Assembly (NCBI RefSeq): GCF_002813375.1
Contig: NZ_PHUJ01000003.1
Span: forward strand, 5,394,001 to 5,458,000
Origin: Pseudonocardia alni
GTDB lineage: Bacteria > Actinomycetota > Actinomycetes > Mycobacteriales > Pseudonocardiaceae
Length of the DNA stretch: 64,000 nt
Direction: 5' to 3'
A model generated the notes under the pieces. The model was given only the letters and a program-made list of their open reading frames with translations. It was not told the origin of the DNA and ran no database searches. The number at the start of each line of letters is the position of its first letter. Positions within the stretch are counted from its first letter, which is position 1. The position numbers and the translations under genes are program-made. Positions 29,883 to 34,933 of the stretch are shown here, one piece after another.

Positions 29883-31211
29883 ATGGTCGAGCGCGGCGGC
29901 TCCGGGACGGGAGGCGACGAGCCTCGCGACCCCGATCCCGCCGCCGGCGTCCGCGGCCCCTTCTCCGTCCCGGACTTCCGCGCGCTGTGGACCGCGGAGA
30001 TCCTGTCGGTCGCCGGCGACCAGGTCGCGCGGGTCGCGCTGACCGTCCTGGTCCTGAGCGAGACCGGCTCGGTCGCGTGGTCGGCGGGGGTCTACGCGCT
30101 GACCTTCCTGCCCGCGCTGCTCGGCGGGCTGCTGCTCGGCCACCTCGCCGACCGGTGGCCGCGTCGCCGGCTGCTGATCGGGACCGACCTGGTCCGGGCC
30201 GGTCTCGTCGTCGCCATGGCCGTGCCCGGTCCCGGGCTGCCGGTCCTGGGGACGCTGCTGGTGCTGGTCGTCCTGCTGGGCGGCCCGCACACCGCGGCCC
30301 GCTCGGCCCTGTTGCCCGACCTGCTGTCCGGAGACCTGCTCGCCCGAGGCCTGGCGCTGCGCCAGGTCTCGGTGCAGGTGGCGCAGGTGGCGGGCTTCGC
30401 GGGGGGCGGTCTGCTCGTCGCGACGCTGACCCCGCGCGGCGCACTGCTGGTCGACGCCGCGACGTTCGTCGGCTCGGCGGTGCTCGTCGCCCTCGGTGTC
30501 CGGTCCCGGCACGCGGCGGTCGCGGCCGGACCGTCGGCGGCGACCGCCGCGGAGACCGCGGCGGCGTCGGAGCCCGGGTCTGCGACGCGGTGGGCGGCCC
30601 GGTCCGGCGCCTGGTGGCGGTCGGCGCTGGCCGGCCTGCCGGTCGTGTTCGGCCACCCCCGGCGGCGCTCGCTGGCCCTCATGGCCTGGATGCTCGGCAT
30701 CTTCGTGCTGCCCGAGGCGCTGGCGGCGGCCTACGCCGTCGCGATCGGGGCGGGCCCGGCGGCGACCGGGCTCCTGATGGCGGCCGACCCGGCGGGCAGC
30801 GCGGTCGGGGCCCTGCTCGTCGCCTACGTGTTGCCGGCCCGGCTGCGCGAGCGCGGCCTGGTGCCGTTGGCCGTCGGGGCGGCGCTACCGCTCGCACTGA
30901 CGCCGCTGGCGGCCGGCCTGTGGCAGGCGGTCGCACTCTGGGCGGTGTCGGGAGCCTGCGCCACGGCCTGCCTGATCGCCGCCCAGTCGGGCTTCGCGCG
31001 GGCCACGCCGAGCGCGGTGCGCGGGAGCGCCGTGGGCGTCGCCGCGTCGGGTCTCGTGGCGACCCAGGGGGTCGCGGTCCTCGCCGGCGGGATGCTGGCC
31101 GAGTGGACCGCTCCGGCGACGGCGCTCGGTGTGTTCGGTGCGGTGGGGATCGTGCTCGCCCTCGGCGCGGTCCGGATGCTCCGGTCGGCCGGTCCGGGGG
31201 CGGTCGCATGA
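29883..31211 (+). CDS. MFS transporter
   Basis: 442 residues, 12 predicted membrane segments, with the DHA3-like loop motif GHLADRWPRRRLL between helices 2 and 3. Pattern PFSVPDFRALWTAEILS at the N-terminus is typical of actinobacterial drug/efflux MFS proteins. ATG at 29883 preceded by GAAGGGA. A Ala-rich cytoplasmic linker (about residues 200-250) separates the halves. Substrate unknown. Confidence 0.88.
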   Translation: MVERGGSGTGGDEPRDPDPAAGVRGPFSVPDFRALWTAEILSVAGDQVARVALTVLVLSETGSVAWSAGVYALTFLPALLGGLLLGHLADRWPRRRLLIGTDLVRAGLVVAMAVPGPGLPVLGTLLVLVVLLGGPHTAARSALLPDLLSGDLLARGLALRQVSVQVAQVAGFAGGGLLVATLTPRGALLVDAATFVGSAVLVALGVRSRHAAVAAGPSAATAAETAAASEPGSATRWAARSGAWWRSALAGLPVVFGHPRRRSLALMAWMLGIFVLPEALAAAYAVAIGAGPAATGLLMAADPAGSAVGALLVAYVLPARLRERGLVPLAVGAALPLALTPLAAGLWQAVALWAVSGACATACLIAAQSGFARATPSAVRGSAVGVAASGLVATQGVAVLAGGMLAEWTAPATALGVFGAVGIVLALGAVRMLRSAGPGAVA

Positions 31212-31347: not shown

Positions 31348-31410
31348 GACATCGACGGTGTCGGACGAACGCGGTGTGCCGATCGGTCCCGTCCGTTCGG
31401 GTAGGTGCTC

Positions 31411-32730
31411 GTGACCGGGATCCGGAGTGGTGAGCCCGAACGTCCCCGCTGGCCCTTCCGCGGCCTGCCGGCGCGGGTGCTCGCCGTGCTGGTGCTCGTC
31501 GAGCTCACCGCCGTGGTGCTCGTCGTGACCGATGTGGCCCGGCTGCCGTGGGACCGCGACACCGGCCTGCTGGCACTGGGCGCACTCGGTCTCGCGGCGC
31601 TCGGCGCGGTGCACACCGAGCTGGCGACCGGCATCGAGCGGGTGCGCCGGCGGGTCGCACACGTCTCCTACTTCGACCTGTCGACGGTCTGGACCTTCGC
31701 GGCCGCGCTGCTGCTGTCGCCGGGGATGGCGGGCCTGGTGGTCGTGGCCGTCTACGGCCACCTGTGGTGGCGGGTCTGGCGTCCCGCCGGGGCGCACTTG
31801 TACCGGCACGCCTACACCACCGCGACCGTCGTGCTCGCCGCGATGGCCGCCTCGGTCCTCGTCCCGTCCGAGTCGCTCACCGCGGCCGCGGGGGTCGGCG
31901 GCGGGAGCCGGGTGGTCGGCTACCTGTCGCTGCTGCTGGCCATGGCGGTCTACGGACTGGTCAACCAGCTGCTCGTCGCGACCGCGCTGGCGCTGTCCTC
32001 GCCGCACCGCCCCCAGTGGCGACGGCTGGTGGGGGACTGGGACGACCACGTGCTGGAGGGCGCGACGCTGTGTCTGGCGGTACTGGCCGCGCTCGCCGTG
32101 CAGCGCCAGGTGCTGCTCGTGCTTCTGGTCCTCCCTCCGCTGCTGGTGCTGCACCGGGCGGTACTGATCCGGCAGCTGGAGGAGCGGGCGAACACCGACG
32201 CCAAGACCAACCTGCTGACCGCCGTCGCGTGGCGGGGCCGCGCGCACCGGGCGCTCGCCCGGGCGCGGCGCCAGCGCGGTGCCGTCGCGGTGCTGATCCT
32301 CGACCTGGACCACTTCAAGGCCGTCAACGACGGCTACGGCCACCTCGCCGGGGACGAGGTGCTCTCCGCCGTCGCCGGGACGCTGAAGGCCCAGGTCCGC
32401 GAGGTCGACCCGGTCGGGCGGTTCGGCGGGGAGGAGTTCGTCGTCCTCCTGGCCGGGCTGCCGGTGGGGCCGGAGGGACGCGAGCTCGCCCACAACGCGG
32501 CCGAGCGCATCCGGCGGACCGTCCGGTCGCTGGCTGTGCACGTCGACGGCCCGGGCGGCGGCATCACCATCTGCGACCTGTCGGTGTCGGTCGGGGTCGC
32601 GGTGACCGGCGGCGACGGCGAGTCCCTCGACGAGCTGCTGCAGGTCGCCGACCACGCCCTCTACGCGGCCAAGCGGGCCGGGCGCGACCAGGTCCGGACC
32701 GGGCGCGACGGGAGCGTCCCCGGCCGCTGA
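31411..32730 (+). CDS. Membrane diguanylate cyclase 1
   Basis: 439 residues: about seven N-terminal membrane helices (to residue about 250), then a GGDEF domain with the active-site variant FGGEEF. The inhibitory I-site REVD lies five residues before FGGEEF motif, so product feedback is expected. It makes cyclic di-GMP at the inner membrane. The start is GTG at 31411 or 31405; no clear ribosome-binding site. Paralogous and convergent to the cyclase at 32962. Confidence 0.9.
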   Translation: MTGIRSGEPERPRWPFRGLPARVLAVLVLVELTAVVLVVTDVARLPWDRDTGLLALGALGLAALGAVHTELATGIERVRRRVAHVSYFDLSTVWTFAAALLLSPGMAGLVVVAVYGHLWWRVWRPAGAHLYRHAYTTATVVLAAMAASVLVPSESLTAAAGVGGGSRVVGYLSLLLAMAVYGLVNQLLVATALALSSPHRPQWRRLVGDWDDHVLEGATLCLAVLAALAVQRQVLLVLLVLPPLLVLHRAVLIRQLEERANTDAKTNLLTAVAWRGRAHRALARARRQRGAVAVLILDLDHFKAVNDGYGHLAGDEVLSAVAGTLKAQVREVDPVGRFGGEEFVVLLAGLPVGPEGRELAHNAAERIRRTVRSLAVHVDGPGGGITICDLSVSVGVAVTGGDGESLDELLQVADHALYAAKRAGRDQVRTGRDGSVPGR

Positions 32731-32961: not shown

Positions 32962-34341
32962 TCAGGCGTGTTCGGGTTCGGCCGGGAAGGTGTGGCGCCC
33001 GATCCGCACGGCGTCGCGCCCGGCCCGCTTGGCCGCGTAGAGCGCGGAGTCGGCGACCTCGAGCAGGCCGGTCAGGGCGTGGCCGTCGTCGGGGAACAGC
33101 GCCCCGCCGATCGAGACGGTGATCCCGGCGCCGGCCCGGGGCGACGGACGGCCGTCGGTCCGGGCGGCGCCCGGGGACGGTGCGGGCAGCCGCTGGGCCG
33201 GGACCCCGTCCGGCGGTGCCACCGGGCCGGAGCCGCCCGCGATCCGCCTGCGCAGACGCTCGGCGATCTGCCGGACCTCCTCGCGCCCGTCGTTCCCGGA
33301 GAGCCGGGGGAGCAGCACGACGAACTCCTCCCCGCCGAACCGGCCGACGAGGTCGTGGTCGCGCAGCTCCTCGCGCAGCATCTGGGCGGTGGCGGCGAGG
33401 ACCTGGTCGCCGTAGAGGTGGCCGTGGGTGTCGTTGATCTCCTTGAAGTGGTCCAGGTCGAGGATCAGCAGCGCCGCGGGCCGCCGTTCGCGTTCGGCGA
33501 GGGTCAGCTCGTGGGTCCCGCGCAGGTGCCAGGCCGCGTGGTTGAGCAGCCCGGTCTTGGCGTCGGTGTCGGCCCGCTCGCGCAGCTGGCGGACCAGGAT
33601 CGTGCGGTGCAGGGCCAGGATGGGCGGTACCGCGAGCAGCGCGACGAACGGCCCGCTCGCGGCCAGCGCCCCCGCCGTCAGCGCCCCCAGGCAGAGGGTC
33701 GCCAGCTCCAGGGTGAGCTCGTCGCCGCCGAACAGGATGCGCACCACCCGGGTGTCCGGGCTGGCCACCGCGACCACGCCGAGGACCAGGCAGGTGTTGA
33801 CGACGGTGTAGGTCAGCAGCGCGAGCAGCAGTGCGAGGGTGCCGGGCAGGCTGCCGTAGAGCTCGCCGGGCCGGGTCGCGGCGAGCACCCCGGCCGCCGC
33901 GTGCACGGACAGGATGACCGTCGCGGTGCTGTAGACCTCGCGGTAGACCGGCCTGCGGTCCGGGGGCGGCACCGGCCGCAGCACCCGGACGTAGAGGTGG
34001 GTGTAGACCACCACCACCACGAACGCGCCCAGTACCGGTGGCAGCAGCAGGGCCGAGGCGAAGGTCCAGACCGAGGTCAGGTTCACGTGGTGGGTCTCGG
34101 CGGTGTAGCGCCGGATGCGTTCGACGCCGGCCACGACCTCGGTGTGCAGGATCCCGGCCACGGTCAGCGTGGCGAGCAGCACCAGGGTCGCGTGGTCGAG
34201 CCGGGGCGGGTTCAGCAGACCGGCGAGCACCAGGCAGACCGCCAGCAGTTCCACGGCGAGGACCGGGCCGAGCAGCCGTCCCGGGATGGACCAGATCGGC
34301 CAGCGGGTGACCTGGTGCAGCCGGACCGGTTCCCGGGCCAT
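32962..34341 (-). CDS. Membrane diguanylate cyclase 2
   Basis: 459 residues with the same plan as cyclase 1: about seven membrane helices and a C-terminal GGDEF domain with FGGEEF and I-site RDHD. A Pro/Ala-rich insertion of about 40 residues (about 370-410) interrupts the GGDEF domain after the active site. ATG at 34341 preceded by GAGGGAGGGA. Likely arose by duplication with the neighbour. Confidence 0.9.
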   Translation of the reverse strand: MAREPVRLHQVTRWPIWSIPGRLLGPVLAVELLAVCLVLAGLLNPPRLDHATLVLLATLTVAGILHTEVVAGVERIRRYTAETHHVNLTSVWTFASALLLPPVLGAFVVVVVYTHLYVRVLRPVPPPDRRPVYREVYSTATVILSVHAAAGVLAATRPGELYGSLPGTLALLLALLTYTVVNTCLVLGVVAVASPDTRVVRILFGGDELTLELATLCLGALTAGALAASGPFVALLAVPPILALHRTILVRQLRERADTDAKTGLLNHAAWHLRGTHELTLAERERRPAALLILDLDHFKEINDTHGHLYGDQVLAATAQMLREELRDHDLVGRFGGEEFVVLLPRLSGNDGREEVRQIAERLRRRIAGGSGPVAPPDGVPAQRLPAPSPGAARTDGRPSPRAGAGITVSIGGALFPDDGHALTGLLEVADSALYAAKRAGRDAVRIGRHTFPAEPEHA

Positions 34342-34709
34342 ACGTCCCTCCCTCGCCGGCGTCGTCCCACCCGATCCTGCCCGTCCACAGCAGCGACCGG
34401 CGTGCCGCCCCTCCGTGATCCTAACCGCACTCGTCGCCGTCAGTGATCGATACGGCTTCGTGATCGCGTCGTAGCTGCTCGGACGAGTGGCGTGATCACG
34501 CTGAGTGCCCGGCCGCACGGCCGGGCCGGTGATTGTTGATATCGCAATGGTGCTCCCTGGTTTGTTCGCGGGGCGGCGGCGGGTCACCCTTTCCGGCGGC
34601 GGCACCGATGAATGCGTGAGAGACGATGTCGGTATGCCGGTAATTGCTGTCCCGTGATGTCACGGCGGCGCCGCGACGTGCGGGATGTCGATCAGGAAAG
34701 GGGTGTCCG

Positions 34710-34730
34710 ATGCGCAACTGGGGTTGGTGA
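34710..34730 (+). CDS. Tiny ORF 1 encoding hexapeptide MRNWGW
   Basis: ATG to TGA in 21 bases, encoding Met-Arg-Asn-Trp-Gly-Trp. GGAAAGGGG lies six bases upstream, an excellent ribosome-binding site at ideal spacing. The same 21 bases recur at 34802 with a different but equally good site, and TGTCGATCA precedes both copies (34686 and 34761). Too short for any family; could be a leader peptide, a signalling peptide or a minimal RiPP precursor. Translation is not proven. Confidence 0.5.
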   Translation: MRNWGW

Positions 34731-34736
34731 AGGCGT

Positions 34737-34754
34737 CCGCGGTAAGGGCCGCGG
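34737..34754 (+). other. Stem-loop between the two tiny ORFs
   Basis: CCGCGG, a six-base loop and CCGCGG form a perfect short hairpin six bases after the first hexapeptide stop. It could be part of an attenuator. Confidence 0.4.
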
Positions 34755-34801
34755 TCATTGTGTCGATCAACTGTGGGTCCGAGTGCGAAAGGAGATCGAC
34801 A

Positions 34802-34822
34802 ATGCGCAACTGGGGTTGGTGA
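34802..34822 (+). CDS. Tiny ORF 2 encoding hexapeptide MRNWGW
   Basis: Exact nucleotide copy of the 34710 ORF from ATG to TGA. AAAGGAG lies seven bases upstream. The flanks differ from the first copy outside the ORF, apart from the shared TGTCGATCA farther upstream, so conservation is centred on the coding unit. A strong hairpin starts 34 bases downstream. Confidence 0.5.
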   Translation: MRNWGW

Positions 34823-34855
34823 GAACAGTGGACGTACCGCGTCGCAGCACGGGAC

Positions 34856-34894
34856 GCGGCGGGCACCGTCCGGGTGACGGACGACGCCCGCCGC
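34856..34894 (+). terminator. Nested hairpin after the tiny ORFs
   Basis: GCGGCGGGC pairs with GCCCGCCGC, and inside it CGTCC pairs with GGACG around GGGTGAC-like loop bases. It resembles an intrinsic actinobacterial terminator without U-tract and would end a short transcript carrying the two ORFs, or act as an attenuator for dxs. Confidence 0.6.
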
Positions 34895-34933
34895 GCCCGG
34901 CAGCGCCATCGGGTCGCCTCGGCTACCGGTCCG

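Follow-up and report, generated by a model that had tools for sequence, protein, structure and literature searches.

The region upstream of dxs in the window, the 64,000-nucleotide stretch of Pseudonocardia alni DNA analysed here, raises the question whether open reading frames (ORFs) of only 21 bases can be genes and, if so, what their hexapeptide product might serve. According to the preliminary description, two identical MRNWGW frames with Shine-Dalgarno (SD) sites start at 34710 and 34802, and the sequence bears this out. Both read ATGCGCAACTGGGGTTGGTGA, their starts are 92 bases apart, and TGTCGATCA precedes each copy. The region is composed of the following elements:

34342 to 34694, no strand assigned: intergenic region from the GGDEF gene to the array, with putative back-to-back promoters (coordinates)
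34695 to 34703, + strand: SD GGAAAGGGG of copy 1 (sequence; family-wide SD count)
34710 to 34730, + strand: mini-gene copy 1, MRNWGW and stop (sequence; orthologous pairs in 5 other genomes)
34788 to 34794, + strand: SD AAAGGAG of copy 2 (sequence; family-wide SD count)
34802 to 34822, + strand: mini-gene copy 2, MRNWGW and stop (sequence; orthologous pairs in 5 other genomes)
34852 to 34897, + strand: strong, terminator-like hairpin 3′ of the last mini-gene, without a U-tract (fold z -3.3)

A degenerate hexapeptide pattern matched two sites in the whole genome of the window, namely these two copies, and the reversed control pattern matched none; Rfam gave no match in the window at the gathering threshold. 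Six of 62 Pseudonocardia genomes (that of the window and five other species) contain the MRNWGW pattern, always as a pair with copies 89-95 nt apart and always directly upstream of dxs. The changes among these orthologues (CGC/CGT, GGT/GGC/GGG, ATG/GTG) leave the peptide intact. When the region upstream of dxs was inspected in 40 more genomes, MRNWEW (2 copies), MRNWGF (2), MRNWGI (2) and MRNWTW (3) came to light, one species each and every variant with its own SD. The copies at this locus agree within a genome and differ between genomes, and their flanks indicate that the duplication predates the species split. No exact MRNWGW was found outside Pseudonocardia in a collection of 84,980 species, from which records near the window's genome were possibly left out. 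With the same tandem pair in six genomes and variants in four more, the ORFs are far beyond chance. A search of other genomes, which the preliminary description had proposed, recovered hexapeptide ORFs with an upstream SD in relatives, not a loss of the 21 bases or their retention without SD or start codon.

To see how far such arrays extend, two detectors were employed. A partner-blind pair pattern, in which nothing but the MRNW codons, the start and the stop is specified, was run on 390 genomes of the family and found arrays in 14 of them, all Pseudonocardia, at 18 loci in total; its reversed control gave zero in all 390 genomes. Loci other than dxs have arrays of three to seven copies encoding MRNWNW, MRNWHW or MRNWTW. 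The second detector is sequence-agnostic, requiring same-length peptides that are at least 60% alike, with SD and on the same strand, and was applied to 60 regions upstream of the cyclase gene described below. It returned arrays of 2-13 copies in 25 of the 60 regions, none when all 60 were dinucleotide-shuffled 20 times, and none outside known arrays in 221 kb of background. The peptide types found from the cyclase side include MRNKSW, MRNHNW, MRNRSW, MRNKNW, MRNRTWI, MRNRHW, MSKDWN and MAKNWGW, among others. Further genera of the family have MxNRDN, MRSRDN, MRTREH, MREKIW, MRDKIW and MTNKDW. In a second family of the class (f22), nearly all copies of the cyclase gene are accompanied by arrays, with MRDNTWT, MRDTTWS (13 copies), MRDNNWN, MRGNSWD, MRANSWD and more. 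From the cyclase side, about 75 arrays of 2-13 copies of 6-8 codons were obtained, which represent some 40 peptide types in several genera and two families; single copies (e.g. MGNKDW in four orthologues, MRNWDW) were rated as weaker evidence than arrays.

Some arrays are not uniform. The mixed array at L086 (8636-8956) encodes MRNWVWN and MRNWIWN and then MRNWTW three times, and may record a switch of peptide in progress. Two peptides each also occur at L172 (g41; MANRDN and MTNRDN) and L192 (f22; MRDSNWT and MRDTNWNG), which may gauge the variation that a receptor tolerates. At L087 (G007:C1:1583000-1602900), a seven-copy array of six MRNWHW and one MRNWRW neighbours a cyclase relative reduced to the membrane domain (a 267-residue open frame), with transposase-like genes close by; the pair may be decaying, or the membrane domain may work without GGDEF. 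Upstream of the cyclase gene at L267 (f22), tandem MGCGVGSSGLEV repeats replace the usual short peptides and may be a plain DNA repeat.

Coding selection was computed for 322 ORFs from 66 arrays, among which one locus figures twice, and copy pairs were compared only if their downstream flanks were under 60% identical. Within arrays the ORFs are 95% identical as opposed to 36% for the 21 nt downstream, and the earlier remark that the flanks are unlike just outside the ORFs holds family-wide. Codon differences are synonymous in 357 cases and non-synonymous in 142, though Met and Trp codons have no synonyms, and differences among copies concentrate at the third codon position. ATG and GTG starts interchange, the stop is kept, and conservation is limited to SD and ORF. 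Among 296 copies that encode the modal peptide of their array, 293 have an SD, versus 17% at random positions; the count was made without requiring an SD, but on arrays that had first been detected with an SD required. TGA is the stop codon in 318 of 322 mini-ORFs compared with 93 of 105 ordinary genes here. The two 21-base ORFs of the window are real genes that are under coding selection and belong to a large family, and this supports the initial idea of a peptide-encoding mini-transcript, possibly a signal.

The gene on the other side of the intergenic region proved to be the constant companion of the arrays. Its features are:

32962 to 34341, - strand: partner gene, membrane diguanylate cyclase of 459 aa with 8 predicted membrane helices and GGDEF (shared neighbourhood family; AlphaFold2)
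33007 to 33573, - strand: GGDEF catalytic domain, residues about 257-445 (PF00990, E 9.6e-36)
33646 to 34209, - strand: sensor core, residues 45-232, predicted fold of ECF transporter S components (VIA-align Z 13.4 to TmRibU)

The GGDEF membrane family is the only protein family common to all nine array neighbourhoods (19-64 kb each); the MFS transporter family is common to three. Each of the 18 partner-blind loci lies within about 2.8 kb of a cyclase homologue and is divergent from it, distance and orientation having been read off coordinate tables rather than scripted; at L090 the array and the cyclase are more than 2 kb apart with a transposase-like gene in between. In the oriented set, 24 of 24 arrays are divergent from the cyclase. 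The membrane domain is present in 61 of 62 Pseudonocardia, 331 of 390 family genomes and 64 of 395 genomes sampled across the class. The conserved partner of the arrays is the divergent membrane GGDEF gene, not dxs, and arrays and cyclase together appear to be a previously undescribed, widespread actinobacterial arrangement. The GGEEF site and the metal and substrate residues are conserved (G336-F340, D295, N303 and D312 are invariant in 60 sequences), as is the RxxD product-inhibition site, with R327 invariant and D330 in at least 90% of the 60 sequences. The partner cyclase is accordingly of the type expected to make c-di-GMP.

The window contains a second member of the cyclase family (31405-32730, + strand), without a recognisable array and tail-to-tail with the partner gene. 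It is preceded by an MFS transporter gene (29883-31211, + strand), homologues of which occur near arrays L089 and L090. A third member in the window's genome (C3:223202-223939) has a single divergent mini-gene, VRNWDW (G000:C3:224297; L134 position 418, + strand), which is kept in two relatives (L135, L136).

From these neighbourhoods, attenuation of dxs was rejected, as the arrays track the GGDEF gene and not dxs. The proposal of an attenuator upstream of dxs was withdrawn for the same reason: adjacency to dxs is confined to one subset of loci, most arrays are not beside dxs, and the conserved partner lies on the other side. A second dxs-like gene and a probable ispH were noted at L086 (15101-18971), about 7 kb from the G003 array; this proximity is probably a coincidence, though dxs neighbours recur. 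The reading as a Trp-rich stalling leader fared no better, since Trp codons are missing in part or altogether from types such as MRNWGF, MRNWGI, MxNRDN and MRTREH, and copies number up to 13. The secondary structures that had been described stood only in part: the stem-loop between the copies is no better than shuffled sequence (z 0.23), and spacer folds likewise are no more stable than shuffled sequence, whereas the hairpin after copy 2 was confirmed, with z -3.3 for the 75 nt downstream. At nine orthologous loci the downstream hairpin scores z from -0.2 to -4.7. A scan for consensus U-tract terminators found none because there is no T run; the hairpin likely marks the transcript end and sets the array apart from dxs.

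A sigma-70 consensus scan of the divergent intergenic region found no match. Two BldD-like inverted repeats lie in this region (34492-34499 and 34654-34663; GTGATCAC and GTGATGTCAC). Such sites (GTGA-N0-9-TCAC) occur in three of 25 divergent promoter regions versus 0.58 expected, but, with the window's own region accounting for two of these three, they are not a family feature. Repression by BldD depends on c-di-GMP, so a BldD feedback loop at the window promoter is conceivable, with sites that are not general to the family.

If the peptide acts on the cyclase, both should vary together. On the membrane-domain tree, 42 peptide types in 81 rows require 42 changes (minimum 41) versus 69 with shuffled labels, and the Pseudonocardia rows (20 types, 48 rows) require 20 versus 38. 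Much of this congruence is explicable by linkage, because peptide gene and receptor are neighbours and co-inherited. At equal GGDEF identity, however, the membrane domains of a pair are clearly more alike when the peptides match than when they differ; at 70-75% GGDEF identity, for instance, membrane-domain identity is 0.70 versus 0.56. The excess change that accompanies a peptide switch is greatest in residues 86-130 and 176-190, and the ratios for GGDEF are close to 1. Only this excess membrane-domain divergence speaks for peptide contact. The nearest thing to a natural swap illustrates the point. The MRNWEW genome G029 shares with the window 97% identity in dxs and 95% in GGDEF (63 residues compared), but 82% in the membrane domain; for the MRNWGW genome G043 the values are 97%, 93% and 92%. 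Changes specific to G029 fall into residues 6-170 in 22 of 26 cases, and G043 has two in all. The G029 case could be one recombination swapping the whole cassette, in which event array and membrane domain still move as a unit.

The sensor domain has no Pfam match. AlphaFold2 with 60 homologues predicted the structure with a pLDDT of 89.3 for the whole protein and 91.1 for the membrane part. Foldseek ranked RibU chains highest for the membrane part, with weak E-values of 0.04 or more. VIA-align placed it next to TmRibU (Z 13.4), BioY (12.0), CbiM (10.9) and ThiT (10.1), and also PanT. All of the best fifteen rows are ECF S components or CbiM, with Z 8.7-13.4 and an rmsd of 3.0-4.5 across 151-184 residues, and the next row has 7.2; yet helical bundles can reach Z 13 by arrangement alone. 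The case that the sensor core has the predicted vitamin-binding S-component fold is good but not final. In 60 sequences, positive charges mark the N-terminus (+1.9) and the loops 70-89 (+2.5), 119-134 (+3.4), 191-206 (+1.5) and 245-262 (+1.4), the remaining loops being neutral or negative. By the positive-inside rule the positive loops are therefore predicted to be cytosolic, a topology based on charge bias only. In structurally characterised S components, the equivalent loops lie over the ligand pocket at the outer face. Thus, the sensor core seems to be inverted relative to these proteins, with its pocket facing the cytosol. EcfT/EcfA genes are not among the families common to the nine array neighbourhoods.

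It is reasonable to propose that the peptide is a specific ligand of the divergently encoded membrane cyclase and that both form a private peptide/c-di-GMP switch, which we regard as fairly probable. Each copy of the two-copy hexapeptide array would be translated in vivo from its own SD site, and the short transcript would end at the hairpin before dxs. We infer that the peptide binds the ECF-S-like membrane domain and thereby alters, with one sign or the other, how much c-di-GMP the attached GGDEF domain makes. Repetition of the identical gene may serve dosage, the product being too small for abundant supply from one start site. The positive charge of the pocket loops makes a cytosolic position probable, so the peptide may not need to leave the cell to be sensed and may act as a direct read-out of the translation of its own transcript. 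Two observations count against a ligand: some cyclase-family members, including the paralog in the window, have no recognisable array, and a peptide of 6-8 residues is larger than the vitamins bound by ECF S components. A bolder version, in which leaderless, never-exported peptides of 6-8 residues from tandem arrays of the smallest known genes bind an inverted ECF-S-like domain on the cytosolic side and set c-di-GMP in dozens of mutually private pairs across Actinomycetes, is a possibility that we hold tentatively.

Alternatively, the hexapeptide could be a pheromone that leaves the cell, perhaps through an MFS transporter (that at 29883-31211 is one candidate), and is sensed outside by the cyclase as a quorum or kin signal. 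Peptide diversity and locus-specific identity do resemble pheromone specificity groups, the receptor co-varies, and three of the nine loci have an MFS transporter nearby. Yet the peptides have no leader, the nine loci share neither exporter nor protease, and the charged pocket loops suggest a cytosolic pocket, so that secretion appears unlikely. For minimal RiPP precursors, with modifying enzymes elsewhere in the genome and the GGDEF neighbour as a regulator only, one could invoke the multiple identical cores, which are commonly known from RiPPs. Short precursors starting with MR and containing aromatic residues also recall the biarylitides (PMC8708641, PMC13417212). Neither a P450 nor another modifying enzyme is common to the nine neighbourhoods, however, and some peptides have no aromatic residue at all (MxNRDN, MRTREH). 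With the GGDEF family alone being shared, a P450-type minimal RiPP finds no support, and we deem the RiPP explanation in general very improbable.

The peptide might also matter only to the ribosome, with tRNA sequestration, peptidyl-tRNA drop-off or stalling controlling the divergent gene or dxs. Such a translation-level regulator would be in keeping with the separate SD sites, the extreme shortness of the ORFs, the use of TGA as stop codon in 99% of them and the strong downstream hairpin. On the other hand, the partner is divergent and not downstream, codons vary synonymously while the peptide is kept, and peptide changes track changes in the receptor domain; we give this mechanism little credence. 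Finally, copies spaced regularly (median 67 nt) and kept alike within each array are what a DNA or RNA repeat, i.e. protein-binding sites or a structural RNA open by accident, would display, but conservation of SD and ORF alone, the third-position bias, interchangeable ATG/GTG starts, the kept stop and spacer folds not above chance render it extremely improbable. The ligand reading is the simplest and stays the preferred one.

c-di-GMP governs development and antibiotic production in filamentous actinobacteria, and for most of their membrane cyclases we know of no input. In a 2022 census of c-di-GMP inputs, the quorum signals for which a receptor is directly documented are AI-2 and BDSF; no peptide signal was found in it (PMC8846402). 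A literature search for MRNWGW and five of six other array peptides gave no match; MRNKSW matched a T-cell receptor paper only, and combined-term searches returned nothing relevant. If the proposal is true, arrays of 21-27-base coding units invisible to annotation would be a new gene class, the peptide would probably be the first peptide ligand for a diguanylate cyclase, and the vitamin-transporter S-component fold would gain a role as peptide sensor. The idea is directly testable, as it predicts a synthesisable ligand for each of dozens of cyclases, and the peptide families could provide a ready-made set of possibly orthogonal switches.

Several known systems share single traits with this arrangement. 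Attenuation peptides of the trp-leader type likewise are encoded by very short ORFs that contain Trp codons and precede a gene, with a hairpin behind them. They lie in line upstream of the regulated gene, whereas the arrays here are divergent from their partner, and they keep the regulating codons, whereas Trp is replaced at position 6 in MRNWGF and MRNWGI and absent in MxNRDN and MRTREH. MASE-type membrane diguanylate cyclases also join a multi-helix membrane sensor to an active-type GGDEF domain, but the sensor here has no Pfam family and an ECF-S-like predicted fold. ECF S components (RibU, BioY, ThiT, PanT, CbiM) resemble residues 45-232 in predicted fold; the sensor differs in being fused to GGDEF, with extra helices at both ends, a predicted inverted orientation and about 5-18% identity. 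RRNPP, ComX-ComP and AIP-AgrC are Gram-positive pairs of peptide pheromone and receptor, in which a short peptide gene also stands beside its own receptor and peptide and sensor domain vary together. Here, in contrast, no leader, processing or export gene is common to the loci, the arrays consist of separately started units of 6-8 codons, and the output would be c-di-GMP. Biarylitide-type minimal RiPPs have the smallest known actinobacterial peptide genes (pentapeptide precursor genes, 18 bp), some starting with MR and missed by annotation. Their single precursor of five residues, two of them cross-linkable aromatic residues or His, is encoded beside a cross-linking P450; the present peptides have 6-8 residues, MRNRDN and MRTREH lack a suitable pair, and 2-13 tandem copies stand next to a membrane GGDEF partner and no P450. 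Biarylitide genes are the closest known genes in size, and differ in partner, copy number and sequence.
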